From contig NZ_RRCH01000007.1 in NCBI RefSeq assembly GCF_003862495.1, positions 1 through 47,714 on the forward strand: a stretch of 47,714 nucleotides of DNA. The letters are read 5' to 3'. A model generated the notes under the pieces. It was not told the origin of the DNA. It worked only from the letters and a program-made list of their open reading frames with translations, and did not search any database. Below, piece by piece: positions 7,379-43,127 of this stretch. The stretch is from Halocatena pleomorpha (GTDB taxonomy: Archaea; Halobacteriota; Halobacteria; Halobacteriales; Haloarculaceae). Every line of letters starts with the position of its first letter. The first letter of the stretch is position 1. Both the position numbers and the translations under genes were made by a program.

Positions 7379-9376
7379 TTAGCGGGCGTCTTCGAGCCGA
7401 TCGAGCGCACGGGGGTTTTCGATGCTCGAAAGGTCACCGAGGTGCTCGTCGTTGTACACCGACTCGATGGCGCGCCGGACGATCTTTCCGGACTGTGTTT
7501 TGGGGAACTCCTCGACGAACAGTATTTCTCGGGGCCGGAACGGCTTTCCGAGCGTCTCGCCCACCAGTTCCCGCAGTTGCGTCCGGAGATCGCCGGACAC
7601 TTCGACATCGTTCTCCGCAATGACGTATGCGACAACCGCCGTTCCGGTCGTGGAATCGTCTGCACCGATGGCTGCGGCTTGGTTGACGGCGTCGCTGTCC
7701 ATGAGCGCGCCCTCCACTTCAGCGGGACCGACCTTCCGCCCGGCCACGTTGAGCGCGTCATCAGCGCGGCCGTGAAGGAACCAAAAGCCGTCGGCGTCTT
7801 GTTGCGCCCAGTCACCGTGATCCCACAGCGGCGGGTCCTCGAACGTCGACCAGTACTCTTCGAGATACCGCTCGTCACCCGACCAGAGTGATTTCGTCAT
7901 CGAGGGACACGAATCGCGGGCGACGAGAAACCCGCGCTCGTTGTCTTCAGCGACGCTCTCGCCCGACGCGTCTACGATGTCGACAGCCATACCGAGTCCG
8001 GGCTTACCGAGCGTGCACGGTTTGAGCGCCATTCCGGGGAGGGGCATCAGGAAACAGCCACAGATCTCGGTGCCGCCGGAGATGTTGATGATGGGAATCT
8101 CGCTGCCTCCCACGTTCTCGAAGAACCAGTGCCACGATTCGGGATCCCACGGCTCACCAGTCGATCCAAGGAGGCGAAGGGATGAGAGATCATAATCTGA
8201 CGGCCGCACGTCGTCTTGCTTGCGGAGCGCACGGATCGCAGTGGGAGAGACGCCGAACACTGAGAGTTTGTGGCGATCGATCATCTCCCAGAACCGATCC
8301 GGGCTGGGATAATCAGGCGCACCCTCATAGATGAACACCGTACCGCCGAACGTGTGGTTACCGATGAGCGTCCACGGTCCCATCATCCAGCCGATGTCTG
8401 ATACCCAGAAGAACCGATCGCCGGGCTTGTGATCGAAGCCGAAGTACACTTCCTTTGCACACTGCATCTGGATGCCGGCGTGGGTGTGCACGATCCCTTT
8501 CGGCATTCCGGTGGTGCCCGAGGAGTAGAGTAGCATCGATTCGTCGCTCGCGTCAAGTTCGCGGGTTTCGAACGCGGCCGAACACGCACCGACAGCCTCA
8601 GTCCACCGTTCATCACGGGAATCGTTCCACGGAACGTCAGCACCGAGCCGATCGTAGACGATCGTGTGCTCGACGTGGCCCGCCGCGTCGATCGCCGCGT
8701 CGGCGGTGTCTTTCAGGATGACATCGTTTCCGCGCCGACGGAAGCCGTCACCGGTGAACAACACCGAACAGCCCGCGTCCGCAATCCGGGTTGCGGTAGC
8801 ATCCACGCCGAAGCCCGAAAAGATCGGCACCGCGATCGCGCCCGCTTTGAAACACCCATACAAGATCGACACGACTTCGGGGACCATGGGCATGTACAAC
8901 CCCACCGTGTCGCCCGGTTCGATCCCCCGCTCCACCAGCGCGTTGGCCACCTTGTTCGACTCTCGGTACAGTTCGTGGTAGGTGACTTCCCGAACGGTGC
9001 CGTCTTCGCCCTCCCAGACCGTTGCAACCGAATTCCGGGTGGGGCTGTCCGGCGCAGCGTGACGATCGACCGTATTATGGGCGATGTTGATCGTCCCGCC
9101 GGGATACCAGTCGGTAAACTGAGGGCCTGCTGTGTCGTCGGACCGCGCCCGACTGCCTGAGGTGTCGTCTCGAACGCTGTCGTACGGCTCGTAAAATTCA
9201 ATACCCAGATAATCCACCAGCTCGTCCCAGAACCATTCTACGTCTTGGCTGCGTTCGATCAACGCGTCGTAATCCTCGATGTCGTGTTCGTCCATGAACT
9301 CGAAGACGTTCGTCGATTCAACGGTCGCTTGGTCCGGCTCGTAAACGATCTCATCCATCGTCGGTGCATCGCTCAT
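7379..9376 (-). CDS. Acyl-CoA synthetase (acetate/propionate-CoA ligase type)
   Basis: The 665-residue, AMP-forming ligase activates a short carboxylic acid to its CoA thioester. The P-loop SSGTTGMPKG lies at residues 285-294, and the catalytic lysine of the C-terminal domain is K631 in SGKIVRRA. Length and N-terminal cap match the acetyl/propionyl-CoA synthetase group. The methylmalonyl-CoA mutase and epimerase genes lie 0.9-2.7 kb away, so propionate is an attractive substrate, but this is inference. Near residues 70-82 there is a short insertion flanked by an 8 bp direct repeat (see the repeat at 9132-9169). It starts at the first ATG, 9376. Confidence 0.85.
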   Translation of the reverse strand: MSDAPTMDEIVYEPDQATVESTNVFEFMDEHDIEDYDALIERSQDVEWFWDELVDYLGIEFYEPYDSVRDDTSGSRARSDDTAGPQFTDWYPGGTINIAHNTVDRHAAPDSPTRNSVATVWEGEDGTVREVTYHELYRESNKVANALVERGIEPGDTVGLYMPMVPEVVSILYGCFKAGAIAVPIFSGFGVDATATRIADAGCSVLFTGDGFRRRGNDVILKDTADAAIDAAGHVEHTIVYDRLGADVPWNDSRDERWTEAVGACSAAFETRELDASDESMLLYSSGTTGMPKGIVHTHAGIQMQCAKEVYFGFDHKPGDRFFWVSDIGWMMGPWTLIGNHTFGGTVFIYEGAPDYPSPDRFWEMIDRHKLSVFGVSPTAIRALRKQDDVRPSDYDLSSLRLLGSTGEPWDPESWHWFFENVGGSEIPIINISGGTEICGCFLMPLPGMALKPCTLGKPGLGMAVDIVDASGESVAEDNERGFLVARDSCPSMTKSLWSGDERYLEEYWSTFEDPPLWDHGDWAQQDADGFWFLHGRADDALNVAGRKVGPAEVEGALMDSDAVNQAAAIGADDSTTGTAVVAYVIAENDVEVSGDLRTQLRELVGETLGKPFRPREILFVEEFPKTQSGKIVRRAIESVYNDEHLGDLSSIENPRALDRLEDAR
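9132..9169. repeat. Short direct repeat with internal palindrome inside the acyl-CoA synthetase gene
   Basis: GTGTCGTC occurs at 9132-9139 and again at 9162-9169, exactly 30 bases (10 codons) apart. Between them is a hairpin with GTCGG arm 9137-9141 and CCGAC arm 9149-9153. The encoded segment holds a repeated DDT. The spacer wording (TGTCG before the hairpin, CTGCCTGA after it) resembles the larger hairpin arrays at 42268-42399 and 17902-17960. The stems are short, so this could be chance. Confidence 0.35.
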
Positions 9377-14355: not shown

Positions 14356-15897
14356 ATGCCACCACATTATTCACGGACAGCCATCACGGCCGTACTTGTG
14401 ATCGCTGTCATCGGTCCAGTGCTCGGCGCGCCCGCAGCGCATCCAGCAGACGAGCACACGACACCGGACGATGTGGAGGGACACGGCAGTACTGACTGTC
14501 AGCCGCCTATCTTGTCTGAAAGTAATGGTGATCGGGCGGTGGACACTGGCACGGTTCCAGTCGCTGACACGGCACACAACACCAGCGAACGAGGAGAACA
14601 AGGGGTATCCGGGGACGATATCACCGAAACAATCGGGATCGCGAACAGCACGATCCGCTCCACGCTACTGTGTCATACCGTACCGACGTCCACGAGCGAA
14701 ACGGACGATCAGAGTCCCATCACACTGGAACGACTCACCAACGCAGCGGTCCGAACGCTAAACCGAACTGGAGGAAGAACCATCACTGTCGTCGACACAG
14801 TGGAACACGGCGTCGTGCGCGTCGTCAACAGAACAGTTGTTGCGGTGCGTCTGCCGGGCCGAACGGAGAGACAGCCCACCACGCCGCCGACGGAGGCGAA
14901 CGACGATTTACACAACGCCACTCGAACGGAACGAACGGACTCCGCACCGGTCAAGCGGACGATCAGCGCTGAAACCGAACGGCGGCAGTCGACTCCGTCG
15001 ATCGACGAGACGGTCCCAAACACACCCACGCCAGCAGCAACGGCAACGACGCCAGCGGCGACAACAACAAGACAGCCGACGAACGTTCACTCCTCGTCCC
15101 CTGAAACGACGACGGAGCATCATCCGGATCGAGAAACGACAACCGTTTCTCTCCCAGTCTCAGTTCAGTCACCACCGGACAACAACGACGGTGGCTCGAA
15201 CGCGCCGCGAGGAACGAAACCACCGTTCGAACCAGAACGGAAAACGGGGGCCGCCGTCGGTTTGAGTGCGACTGCGGTGCGGCTACTCCTCAGACACGGA
15301 AGCACTGCGTCCGAAACCGTATCGAGACCACACGCGGTGTCTGTCCAGTTCCGACTCACGACCGTCCTCAGTTCACTCTCGCAGGTGATGGTGCTGCTAC
15401 GGTACAGTCGGTACGACGATTCGGATCCGCTCGAACACGACGGACGGGAAATCGTGTTTGAGGCGATCGAAGAGACGCCGGGGATCTATCTCTCAGCGAT
15501 AAATAGCCACACAGAGTTCTCACTGTCGACGCTGCGCCACCATCTCCGAGTTCTGGAGCGAGAAGAACTCATCACGAGCGTGAAGGTGCATGGGAAACGG
15601 CGTTTTTATCCGACCAATAGCGAACGCATCGAACTCACGGCTGCGTTGGGAGAGGAAGCGACCGCGAACGTCATCGAAGCGCTCTCTGACCTGGGTCCCG
15701 TGACGGTATCGGAGTTAGCGGACGAACTGGATCGGGATCCGAGTACCGTGACTCACCACCTCCAACGGCTCGACGACGATGATCTCGTCTGTCGGAAACG
15801 ATCCGGGCGTGTGGTGATAAATCGCCTCTCGGACGACGTTATGACGTATCTCACGGAGCAACCGGAGCGAATCCCGACAGCGTCGAGTGCTGATTAG
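14356..15897 (+). CDS. Membrane-anchored protein with tandem winged-helix domains
   Basis: The 513-residue product starts with a signal-anchor (hydrophobic stretch at about residues 9-28). A roughly 270-residue Thr/Ser/Pro-rich region follows, likely extracellular and glycosylated, then a weakly hydrophobic segment near residues 300-350 and a block [13 protein letters not shown]. The rest is two winged-helix DNA-binding domains: the first has [20 protein letters not shown], the second [20 protein letters not shown]. Proteins of this plan are common in haloarchaea and are presumed one-component membrane regulators. The start at 14356 precedes the signal segment. Its stop overlaps the valS stop on the opposite strand. 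Confidence 0.75.
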
Positions 15898-18563
15898 CTG
15901 TAGATGAGGATCGTCGCCGCATCCAGTTCGATTACGTCGACTTCCTCGCCGCTCGCAGCGCGCTGTTCGTCGAGGATATCGACCGCATCAGGATCGAGTG
16001 CGACCGAATCGCCATCGACATCAACGGAGATTTCGCCGTTCGTTTCGATCTGTGCCGTCAGTTCGGCGGGATCAGCTGCTTCGAGCGCAGAGACGACAGC
16101 ACCGGCTTGATCCCGGAACTGGGGACCGATCACCGAGTGATCGGGATCAATACCGACAGGAACGAGTTCGACGTTTGGCCGGCCGGATTCGATGTAGACG
16201 GGAGCGTTGACCGCAGAGCTGAGGTCGTAGGTGTCGATTGCGGGCTGTTCCTCGTCACGGTCGACATACAGCTCAATCCGATCTAACTCCGCGTTGAGCG
16301 CCATTCCGGTGTCGGACTTCCAGCCACGGATCGCGCTTGCGACGTTCACGATGAGCCGTCCCCGTTGAGCGGCGTCAGCGTTGAACGTTTGGAGCGACGG
16401 CCACATCTCCGTGTGCACGCTTTCGGTTCCGTCGGGAAGCGTCTGATACGCCTCTTCGGTGAGGAACGGGGCAAACGGGGAGAGCATCCGTAGCGAGGCC
16501 GACAACACGGTGTACAGGGCATGGCGAGCCGCATCCCGTTCACCGGGACGACCCTCATACAGGCGTCCTTTGAGCAGTTCGAGGTAGTCGTCAGCGAGAT
16601 CGTGCCAAATGAATTCCCGCAGTTCGCGCAACGCAGCGTCGAACCGATAGGCGTCCATGTGTGCTTCAACCTGATCAGCGACATCGCTACACCGGATCAG
16701 GATCCACTTGTCGGCGTCGCGGTAGGCCGGATCCTGAATCGATGGGGTGTCCGCGTCAAAATGATTCGACGCGAATTTGGTGATGTTCCACACCTTCGTG
16801 AGAAACCGCGAGGCAGACGTGACTTCTTTCCACTGGAATTGGATATCGGTGCCGGGCTGTCCACCGAGCGCGATCGCCTGACGGAAGGCGTCAGCGGAGT
16901 ACTCCGAAATGACTTCCTTTGGCTCGACGAAGTTCCCTTTCGATTTGCTCATCTTGTTGCCGTCCTCCCCGAACACCATGCCGTTGATCAGTGCACGATC
17001 CCACGGACGTTCGTCTTCGAGCGCAGTAGTCCTGAGAATGGTGTAGAACGCCCACGTCCGGATGATGTCGTGGCCCTGCTCGCGCAACTGAACCGATTCG
17101 AACGATGATTCGGGCCAGTCGGTCACGTACAACGGCGTGATTGAGGAGTCCATCCACGTGTCCATAACGTCGGTCTCTCCCTCCCAGTTTGTGCTACCAC
17201 ACTCCGGACACGAATGATCGGGATCAGTCTCAGTCGGATCGATCGGAAGCGCGCTTTCGTCAGCGGTGTGGACATGGCCACAGTCTTCGCAGAACCACGC
17301 CGGGATGGGCGTCGCAAACACCCGTTGGCGGGAGATAACCCAGTCCCAATCCATCCCTTCGGCCCACTCTTCGAGGCGGGCGTACATGTGCTCGGGGACC
17401 CATTCGATCTCTTGAGCCGTTTCGAGAATCTCCGCTTGGTCGACCCGGACGAACCACTGGTCTTTGCTCAAGATCTCGATCGGTGTGTCACACCGCCAGC
17501 AGATCCCCACCGACTGTTCGGTAGACTCGCGGTCGTTCAAAACGTCCGCCGCCGCAAGAGCCTGTGCGATCTCCTCTTTTGCCTCGCTCACACCGAGTCC
17601 TTCGAACTCACCCGCGCGTTCAGTGAGATGACCGGACTCGGTGATGACCGGTCGAAGATCCAGATCGTGTTCAGCCCACCACGTAACGTCTTGTTTATCA
17701 CCGAACGTACAGACCATCACAGCACCGGTCCCAAACGTGCTATCGACTTCCTCGTCGGCAAACAGTTCGACTTCCTGACCGAACAGTGGCACCTCGAACG
17801 TCTCGCCGATCCGGTCGGCGTAGCGCTCATCGTCGGGGTTGACAGCGATTCCTACACACGCAGCGAGCAGCTCGGGGCGCGTCGTTGCGATCTCGATACC
17901 GTCGCTGTCGCCGGACTGCGTCCGGCTGTTCGAGGAACGTTGGTCCTCGCTGTCGCCGGAGAACGTGAGATAGTACAGTGTTCCGGTTCGGTCGTCGGTT
18001 TCGACTTCGGCGTCAGCGATCGCGGTTTCACAGCGCGGACACCAGTTGACAGGGTGGTCGTCGCGGTAGACGTAGCCGTCGTCGGCCATCCGAACGAACG
18101 AGCGTTGCGTTTCCCCCCAGTATTCGGGATCCATCGTCCGGAACTCGTGGGTCCAGTCCTGCGAGAAGCCGAGATCGAGCATCGTCTCGTACATCGCGTC
18201 GATCTGGGACTCGGTGTGTTCGATACACAGCTCCCGAAACTCCTCGCGGGGAACGTCTGTGCGGTGGATGTCGTGGTTCTCCTCGACTTTCACTTCGGTC
18301 GGAAGCCCGTGGCAGTCCCATCCCTGCGGAAACAACACGTCGTCGCCGCGCAACCGGTGATAGCGGGCAGCAAAATCCATATAACACCAGCCCAGCGCGT
18401 TTCCGATGTGGAAGTTCCCGGTCGGGTAGGGCGGCGGTGTGTCGATCACGTAATCTGGGCGCTCCTCGTCGTCGCGGTACTGGTACACGCCCATCTCCTG
18501 CCACTGCTCGCGCCACTTCTGCTCGATGCTGTCCGGATCGTATTCGTCCTCTATCTCTGTCAT
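15894..18563 (-). CDS. valS: Valyl-tRNA synthetase
   Basis: This class I synthetase of 889 residues charges tRNA-Val. The HIGH signature is HIGN at residues 52-55 ([12 protein letters not shown]), the KMSKS signature is intact at 537-541, and the CP1 editing domain lies between them with [12 protein letters not shown]. Zinc-ribbon-like CxxC pairs occur at WCPRCE, CWRCD and CEDCGH. A 15-codon in-frame insertion sits in the editing-domain approach (near residues 203-218, [20 protein letters not shown]), flanked by direct repeats and made of palindromes. It starts at the first ATG. It is convergent with the upstream-numbered winged-helix gene, and the stop codons overlap. Confidence 0.96.
17902..17960. 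repeat. In-frame palindromic insertion inside valS
   Basis: A 14-base direct repeat, TCGCTGTCGCCGGA, occurs at 17902-17915 and 17947-17960, exactly 45 bases (15 codons) apart. Between are two hairpins: CCGGAC/GTCCGG at 17911-17925 and CGAGGA/TCCTCG at 17931-17949, joined by CTGTT. The encoded residues (Ser/Asp/Arg/Gln-rich) are not part of the conserved synthetase core. Layout and spacers resemble the array at 42268-42399. Confidence 0.6.
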
Positions 18564-20669: not shown

Positions 20670-20712
20670 TTTTTTACGGAAGGGTGCGTCCCACGCACCC
20701 TTCCGTAAAAAA
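20670..20712. terminator. Perfect 20 bp hairpin, bidirectional terminator candidate
   Basis: The left arm 20670-20689 and right arm 20693-20712 pair perfectly over 20 bases around a CCC loop. The outer six pairs are T:A, so either strand ends in a U-run. It sits between convergent gnd and tRNA-Arg, 11 bases past the 3' end of the tRNA. Confidence 0.6.
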
Positions 20713-42029: not shown

Positions 42030-42920
42030 TCATCCGTTCGTGCTGGCCGTGTACGCCCGCGTTACGTCTACGAGTGCGTTCCGGTATTCGGCTTCGTCAG
42101 GGTCGGTGGTGAGCGTCCGAAACCGTGATTTGAACGCGTCGAGATCGATGTTTGGGGCGTCGTTAGCGGCTGCGTGAGCGAGATCATACAGCCGGTGGTC
42201 CGTCCCAACCAGACCATGGCGTTCACACAACGCGAGCGCAAACGCCGCGTTCACAGCGGTGATGTCACCAGAACGCTTCGCGTTCTGGTTGCTAACCGAA
42301 ACTCCCTGAGTTTCGGTGATGTCGCCAGAACTGGCTGGTTCTGGCTGCTGACCAGAATCCCGGATTCTGGTAATGTCACCAGAACGCTTCGCGTTCTGGT
42401 TGCTACCCGACCTCCGCTCGGCTTTTCGAGCAAGCCGTGACCAGACGACCGGAGCAGTTGTCGACTGGTTTATGATTGCACCCGCTAACCCGGATTCGAG
42501 GAACGTAACTAGCTTGTTCGATGGAGTGACATCGAGCGTGATGTCATCGGCGTAAATGTCTTTCATATGATTTGCGATCTGGTAGCAGTGGGCAAGTGTC
42601 CGGCGCTCAACGGACTGTCCGGCAAGCGCGAGGTAGATCGCTTCAGCCGTGGATTGGGTGTGAGAGGGATGCTGCTGTTCGTTACGGTGCATGTGAGAGA
42701 ACTCGTGTAACGCCAGTTCGCGCGCCATTGTCGAACGCGCCGTTTTGTGTGACATATTGAGGAGGTGATGATCGTCGTAGTGAGCTGTCCACGTCCGTTC
42801 GTCTGGATCGGACCGAACACGGACGAAGACCCGTTTGTTGAGATCGTACTCCGTCTCGAACACATCACGCGCGCTCAAAAACGGATCCGCTGGACCACCA
42901 CCCTGCACGTGTACCTCCAT
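42030..42920 (-). CDS. HExxH metalloprotease-like protein interrupted by a palindromic array
   Basis: The protein is 296 residues from the second ATG (42920; a start at 42935 adds five residues). Its N-terminal half contains LHEFSHMHRNE with HEFSH at residues 72-76, an HExxH zinc-hydrolase motif inside a helical region. The C-terminal part is conserved-looking (ALALCERHGLVGTDHRLYDLAH). I think it is the uncharacterised haloarchaeal family (DUF5781-like) often found between rps7 and EF-2; this is recognition, not proof. Residues about 172-222 are low-complexity and repeated: NQNAKRSGDIT at 174-184 and 211-221. They are encoded by the hairpin array at 42268-42399. A likely loop insertion tolerated by the fold. 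Confidence 0.75.
   Translation of the reverse strand: MEVHVQGGGPADPFLSARDVFETEYDLNKRVFVRVRSDPDERTWTAHYDDHHLLNMSHKTARSTMARELALHEFSHMHRNEQQHPSHTQSTAEAIYLALAGQSVERRTLAHCYQIANHMKDIYADDITLDVTPSNKLVTFLESGLAGAIINQSTTAPVVWSRLARKAERRSGSNQNAKRSGDITRIRDSGQQPEPASSGDITETQGVSVSNQNAKRSGDITAVNAAFALALCERHGLVGTDHRLYDLAHAAANDAPNIDLDAFKSRFRTLTTDPDEAEYRNALVDVTRAYTASTNG
42259..42405. repeat. In-frame array of five consecutive palindromes
   Basis: Five hairpins follow one another inside a coding region. They lie at 42268-42288 and 42379-42399 (identical: CCAGAACGC arms around TTC), 42296-42316 (CCGAAACTC arms), 42325-42344 (CCAGAAC arms) and 42352-42370 (CCAGAATC arms). The joining spacers alternate: TTGCTAA, TGATGTCG, CTGCTGA and TAATGTCA. 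The first and last units, with their flanks, form a direct repeat of 36 bases with one mismatch at a 111-base (37-codon) period. All arms vary while pairing is kept. Confidence 0.85.
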
Positions 42921-43127
42921 GCGTATGCATACCACGGCTCGAACGGGTATGATTCTTGTGTCGCCAATGAGTGATCTGAAAAATTCGTGGGCGAACGTGT
43001 GTTATGTTCGGTACGTACGTGGATAACCGAGTAATCATCGAGAGAGTCATCATTCATTGAAAATAATACAAACAGAATCTCATATGCATAACAGTTAGGG
43101 AGGACAAAAAAGATTCACAAAACGACA

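Follow-up and report, generated by a model that had tools for sequence, protein, structure and literature searches.

A block of five perfect hairpins inside a protein-coding gene of Halocatena pleomorpha probably represents three small mobile DNA cassettes standing in tandem, members of a haloarchaeal family that inserts behind the tetranucleotide GRTG. This reading comes from sequence comparison, and we infer movement by comparing paralogues and species.

Structure of the array in the DUF5781 gene

The window analysed here is a 47,714-nt stretch of H. pleomorpha contig NZ_RRCH01000007.1. The block lies antisense and in frame within an open reading frame of 301 aa (42030-42935, minus strand). 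The encoded protein belongs to the DUF5781 family (PF19093), as judged from Pfam and homologues, and matches Pfam in two stretches (3.4e-119), being interrupted by the array after residue 172. The initial annotation had described five tandem palindromes in frame in a protein gene, each perfectly paired over 7-9 bp and joined by spacers of two alternating kinds. Five tandem perfect hairpins are present at 42267-42400: hairpins 1 (42267-42289), 2 (42295-42317) and 5 (42378-42400) have arms of 10 bp and loops of 3 nt, hairpin 3 (42324-42345) has arms of 8 bp and a loop of 6 nt, and hairpin 4 (42351-42371) has arms of 9 bp and a loop of 3 nt. The in-frame position and the perfect pairing were thus borne out, but the arms measure 8-10 bp, since the outermost pair (G-C or A-T) belongs to the arm. 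The spacers do alternate, but they read TGCTA/TGCTG and GATGTC/AATGTC rather than as first written. A sixth, decayed hairpin (CCGA-cctccgc-TCGG, 42407-42421) follows the perfect ones. The array has the top Tandem Repeats Finder score of the window (185; runner-up 67), and in dinucleotide shuffles of the window (n=20) a 160-bp stretch had no more than three hairpins whose arms reached 7 bp.

Read on the plus strand, the array resolves into three units behind a target tetranucleotide GATG (42261-42264). We built a covariance model of the two-hairpin unit from real unit sequences. It scored unit 1 (42265-42321; TC-hairpin 1-TGCTA-hairpin 2-GATG) at 78 bits and unit 2 (42322-42375; TC-hairpin 3-TGCTG-hairpin 4-AATG) at 65.5 bits. 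Unit 3 (42376-42422) consists of TC-hairpin 5-TGCTA followed by the weak sixth hairpin, and its right end is decayed.

Comparison with homologous genes

The DUF5781 gene is present in 48 of 59 related genomes, and the great majority of the homologues align to residue ~172 and then from ~222 onward. Among the 30 loci read at this site, 27 have a linker of only 6-69 nt, compared with 150 nt in the window's own gene. Residues 173-222 are thus missing in distant haloarchaea, the outcome expected if the segment is an insertion. The congener G003 carries a 168-nt linker with other hairpins at the same place, and one distant genome has 183 nt of unrelated sequence there. The gene in the window has gained 144 bp net and that of G003 162 bp; both numbers are divisible by three, and the protein of the window has a surplus loop of 48 residues. 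In several homologues, including the empty sites L037, L039 and L044, the junction on the plus strand reads CGGTGATNTC, which appears to be the ancestral state, so the target resembles the array spacer itself.

Local tandem duplication or replication slippage, with chance resemblances elsewhere, would produce the tandem layout. However, within an array the arms vary from unit to unit in sequence and in length although the spacers are fixed, and the family is found genome-wide and order-wide, which makes this explanation scarcely credible.

Unit anatomy and covariation

The main unit, as it appears in the sequences, is 5'-TC-hairpin1-TGCTA-hairpin2-GA(TG)-3', about 49-57 bp long; its two perfect hairpins flank a constant core of 5 nt. 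Among 257 hairpins in fetched arrays, arms were 6-11 bp, loops were 3 nt in 218, and the dominant spacers were TGCTA (53 times) and GATGTC (17 times). When 147 distinct matches were aligned, pairing held in 97.5% of cells, and 18 of the 19 pairs had changes on both sides. There were 532 double-change cells; shuffles gave 142 +/- 9 and slid controls 19-81, with pairing in the slid controls down to 26-44%. The figures for the alignment lean upward because it was fitted to the model and holds both strands of some units. The strong covariation supports the proposal that arms diverge with compensatory changes.

Two side types follow the same plan as the main type, GTC-HP-TGCC(N)-HP-GA and GTCGTT-HP-TGATGA-HP-AACCAC. 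Four-hairpin arrays, which are common in other genera, contain the second side type with a main-type unit set into its centre (TGATG^A); these composites, of about 107 bp, read as nested insertions. A further array type was seen at L154, L155, L164 and L172, with hairpins such as CGCAAGACC and ATCAGACC, spacers such as GACGTT, TCGCACA and GCCA, and a grammar unlike that of the main type. The window also contains a perfect hairpin with 20-bp arms at 20670-20712, flanked by T and A runs and adjoining tRNA-like sequence; it looks like an ordinary bidirectional terminator with no relation to the family.

Distribution of the family

Array DNA used as a query retrieved further copies in the own genome. 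The covariance model matched in all seven genomes of the genus. Counting both strands, it gave 55 matches in the own genome and 133 in the congener G005, numbers that overstate the loci because a single locus can be counted several times, through adjacent matches and through matches on the reverse strand. There are tens of copies in the own genome and more than 60 loci in the congener. Across Halobacteriales, 80 of 195 genomes had matches, and in a phylum sample of 148 genomes all 13 positives fell within this order. These counts agree with the dispersed family that the initial annotation had postulated, and many copies lie in frame in protein genes. A strict pattern scan of GTDB returned haloarchaea only, apart from one Brevundimonas match that we attribute to chance, the site having no hairpins. 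Matches also occurred on plasmid records from several haloarchaeal genera, and none were found in the phage records searched. Among open-access papers on haloarchaeal palindromes we found no published name or description of the family; an earlier description elsewhere is possible.

The valS gene (15894-18563, minus strand), where similar spacers had been noticed, contains a genuine related unit of 45 bp in frame at 17910-17954 (plus strand; GCCGGAC..GTCCGGC-TGTT-CGAGGA..TCCTCG-CTGTC). Sister species carry zero, one or two units: one is present in the window, two stand in tandem in G003, and valS lacks the unit in G005, G002, G001, G004 and more distant genomes. A candidate decayed unit in the AMP-ligase gene (9132-9169, plus strand) shows a weak hairpin only, and plasmid-borne homologues differ by 1-9 residues in length.

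Insertion target and host genes

Filled and empty sites were compared at the nucleotide level. The left flank of filled main-type sites retains the recipient's GGTG, TC coming directly after whatever the recipient had; the right flank is GATG followed by the recipient's next base. This pattern gives a unit TC-HP1-TGCTA-HP2-GA with TG duplicated or matched, and places the insertion point immediately 3' of GRTG (GGTG or GATG) in the sequences compared. Either the final TG arose by duplication of 2 bp of the target, or the element itself ends on the right in GATG and matches the target there. A 6-bp duplication of GATGTC was rejected: on the left the sequence agrees with the recipient (GGTG), and on the right GATG is followed by a base of the recipient. 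Net insertions of the main type measured 51, 53 and 55 bp, in every scored case the sum of hairpins, core and 6 bp, and single-unit insertions overall measure 45-58 bp. Within the own genome, the difference between two TnpB copies of ~98% identity is exactly 54 bp.

These flanks also bear on a DDE-type transposase, which would act at TCRCC...GGYGA termini and duplicate 2 bp of the target, TG in the main type and CC, AC or CG in side types. In most cases the two bases after ...GA do equal the two bases before the left TC or GTC, and the element ends are inverted repeats. Against this, variable arm sequence and length leave almost no conserved terminal repeat, and some side-type cases mismatch (L193). 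We consider a DDE enzyme improbable.

In-frame hosts include genes for DUF5781, AMP-binding, GH3 (between domains), beta-galactosidase/ricin, alpha-amylase, LMW phosphatase and TnpB proteins. The inserts found in cellular genes are frame-compatible and presumably translated. Of 77 arrays, 18 were enclosed in open frames that span 250 codons or more and leave at least 40 codons on each side, though some of these 18 frames may not be real genes, several having no Pfam family. Units occur in both orientations relative to the host gene, and parts of transposons are also hit, namely TnpA, TnpB and one IS605 near-terminal palindrome.

Several individual sites were also recorded. At L204 and L210, two different Y1 transposase (TnpA) proteins have extra in-frame residues in the PKYR region, apparently from such units, suggesting that the family also parasitises IS200/IS605 genes. 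At L122 (G005:C1:1926359-1926421) a unit breaks a GNAT-like gene, its loop TTT creating an in-frame TGA where the reverse-complement loop AAA would keep the frame open. L138 (G005) and L181 (G003) are apparently orthologous sites with similar flanks and different hairpins, a third case of a changed cassette at the same site.

We also considered that the hairpins are immobile functional RNA or regulatory structures, inherited vertically and maintained by compensatory mutation. The strong covariation would fit, as would arms and spacers that stay unchanged among paralogues (described below) whose flanks have dS about 0.7. However, many genes have clean empty sites, and filled/empty pairs contradict vertical inheritance. 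Unrelated genes and transposase genes are hit, in both orientations relative to the host gene. Immobility is highly improbable on these grounds, and mobile cassettes are the better explanation.

Cassettes at one codon of a multigene family

A multigene family of ~183 codons, present in many copies per genome and confined to this genus in the sample examined, carries cassettes at a single codon (TGG TG^Y). The protein of about 183 aa (MTLPVFQFWDRLGE...WCKPCRSTGCAHATQIEEIL) had no match in Pfam or NCBIfam. There are tens of copies per genome along the main chromosome, with other copies at L247-L250 and L284-L327; the empty copy L249 (75-623, minus strand) is a full-length open frame. The cassette is present in five of ~10 copies in G000 and five of ~36 in G005. 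The G000 cassettes are 55 bp long; those of G005 are 51 bp and include an in-frame TAA. They break the frame or add a stop, and the sequence on both sides stays conserved. Most copies have diverged from one another (dS 0.4-0.8). Behind the cassette, dN/dS was 0.08-0.11 in filled G000 copies and 0.08-0.14 in empty copies.

In G000 the arms and spacers of these cassettes are identical and the loops alone differ (GAA versus TTC, TCC versus TTC). A 4-nt target can hardly by itself account for identical cassettes at one codon of paralogues that have diverged. A single ancestral insertion was rejected since filled and empty copies intermix, forcing at least three changes and eight on the best tree. 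Gene conversion was likewise set aside as the source of the identical cassettes, identity not being raised beside the insertion and differences occurring within ~8 nt. Any of four processes could account for the same-codon cassettes: recent insertion that recurs at a specific site, precise loss of the cassette from copies that were filled ancestrally, conversion over short tracts, or omission of the insert during expression. A switch or skipping would fit cassettes that are scattered over the gene tree, with broken frames and conserved flanks. An archaeal mobile element recognised by the shape of its hairpins and not by their sequence would then move out of one exact site and back into it, with the flanks left intact, the cassette being a reversible switch or skipped; we think this unlikely.

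The loops raise the question of template switching inside palindromes, which would keep arms perfect and flip loops whatever the way in which the units spread. GAA and TTC loops alternate between otherwise identical cassettes, and loops are common in both their direct and their reverse-complement form. As template switching leaves the dispersal, the fixed spacers and the empty sites unexplained, we regard it as somewhat unlikely, and it is compatible with mobile cassettes.

A possible mechanism of mobility

A unit inserted 3' of GRTG leaves GATG at its right end, which recreates the target. More units can then land beside it or inside related units, which explains tandem and nested arrays with alternating GATGTC and TGCTA spacers. 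Where a gene is under selection, only stop-free copies in frame would survive, so that the host protein gains a surplus loop. Recognition would be mainly structural, through hairpin shape and spacers, since arm sequences vary with compensation and arm length changes even at the same site.

The mobiliser is possibly, at less than an even chance, an HUH-type single-strand 'peel and paste' enzyme acting in trans, since such an enzyme would recognise hairpins and a target tetranucleotide and make no long duplication. The Y1 transposase, a single-strand enzyme to which hairpins and a tetranucleotide target would be suited, was not associated with the element across the 195 genomes, being found in 52 of 80 element-bearing and 63 of 115 other genomes (Fisher p 0.18); its role as an obligatory resident partner is not supported. 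Two genomes that are 99% complete have 13 unit matches each and zero Y1 matches.

The cassettes could also be reduced IS200/IS605 ends, that is PATE ('terminal-only') elements or Haloquadratum small mobile repeats, moved by TnpA in trans. There is no long target duplication, and a tetranucleotide-like target on the left matches the right end. In Haloquadratum, terminal-only IS605 derivatives of 52 bp are mobile and their insertions differ between strains, and SMR-A favours elements of IS605 type, landing in the near-terminal palindromes (PMC3119063); units here too lie in TnpA, TnpB and one near-terminal palindrome. However, the family did not track Y1_Tnp in those 195 genomes, and none of the Y1/tnpA loci read was bracketed by these units as its own ends. 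The arms also vary beyond what sequence-specific TnpA recognition, as in IS608 and REP systems, would tolerate. We hold this origin to be possible, at less than an even chance.

Comparison with known systems

The initial annotation had proposed a counterpart of Rickettsia palindromic elements, short palindromic mobile DNA found in frame in unrelated protein genes and tolerated there (PMC10969869). The analogy stands (mobile, palindromic, in-frame, tolerated), with insertions in protein genes that are missing from homologues (DUF5781, TnpB, valS). Membership does not, as no sequence relation was shown and the architecture differs. The Rickettsia families are described as ~150 bp, whereas haloarchaeal single units insert 45-58 bp, and the cassettes have a double hairpin, fixed spacers, a GRTG target and free arm sequence, in Archaea.

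REP/BIME elements with RAYT are palindromic, dispersed, at times inside genes and linker-joined (PMC3733652). Unlike these, the cassettes have no GTAG/CGTC tag, the fixed neighbours of the main type being TC, TGCTA and GATG; no RAYT-flanked copy was seen, and there was no association with Y1_Tnp. Mitochondrial double-hairpin or repetitive hairpin-forming elements and yeast GC clusters form tandem hairpins and insert inside genes, and their stems exceed synonymous sites in conservation, with variable loops and complementary substitutions (PMC4478555, PMC2800124). They belong to eukaryote organelles, and no sequence relation to the cassettes was shown. Mitochondrial byps (translational bypass hairpin elements) are short hairpin inserts inside conserved reading frames. 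The cassettes too are short hairpin inserts in frames, but those found in cellular genes differ in being frame-compatible and presumably translated.

The family extends tolerated in-frame palindromic insertion to Archaea, with clear filled and empty sites, and explains odd species-specific loops in conserved haloarchaeal proteins (ValRS, DUF5781). With constant spacers and target but variable loops and stems that vary in both sequence and length, it is a natural set for reading recognition rules, and in the multigene-family copies precise excision, homing and bypass can be tested directly.

With the Haloquadratum PATE and SMR elements the cassettes share a haloarchaeal host, the lack of a transposase, short palindromic structure and the absence of a long target duplication. 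Strain-specific insertions were reported in a Haloquadratum strain whose IS200-type transposases are all pseudogenes (PMC3119063), a gap similar to cassette presence not tracking Y1_Tnp. Of the traits of a PATE, the hairpins and a GRTG target are present, while a 2-bp duplication is indistinguishable from a matching right end. Of the SMR-A traits, which are a length of about 110 bp, inverted termini and insertion into IS605 near-terminal palindromes, the four-hairpin composites come near in length at ~107 bp and one unit lies in a near-terminal palindrome, whereas the window unit does not. As published, SMR-A is about 110 bp with >95% identity within type, and the cassettes differ from that description in their compensated arm variation, their two-hairpin ~50-bp unit and their presence also in cellular genes. 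On these comparisons we class the family as a variant of mobile palindromic elements that is a member of none of the Rickettsia palindromic elements, REP elements or mitochondrial hairpin elements and GC clusters, and that in behaviour is closest to the Haloquadratum PATE/SMR elements and the mitochondrial double-hairpin elements.
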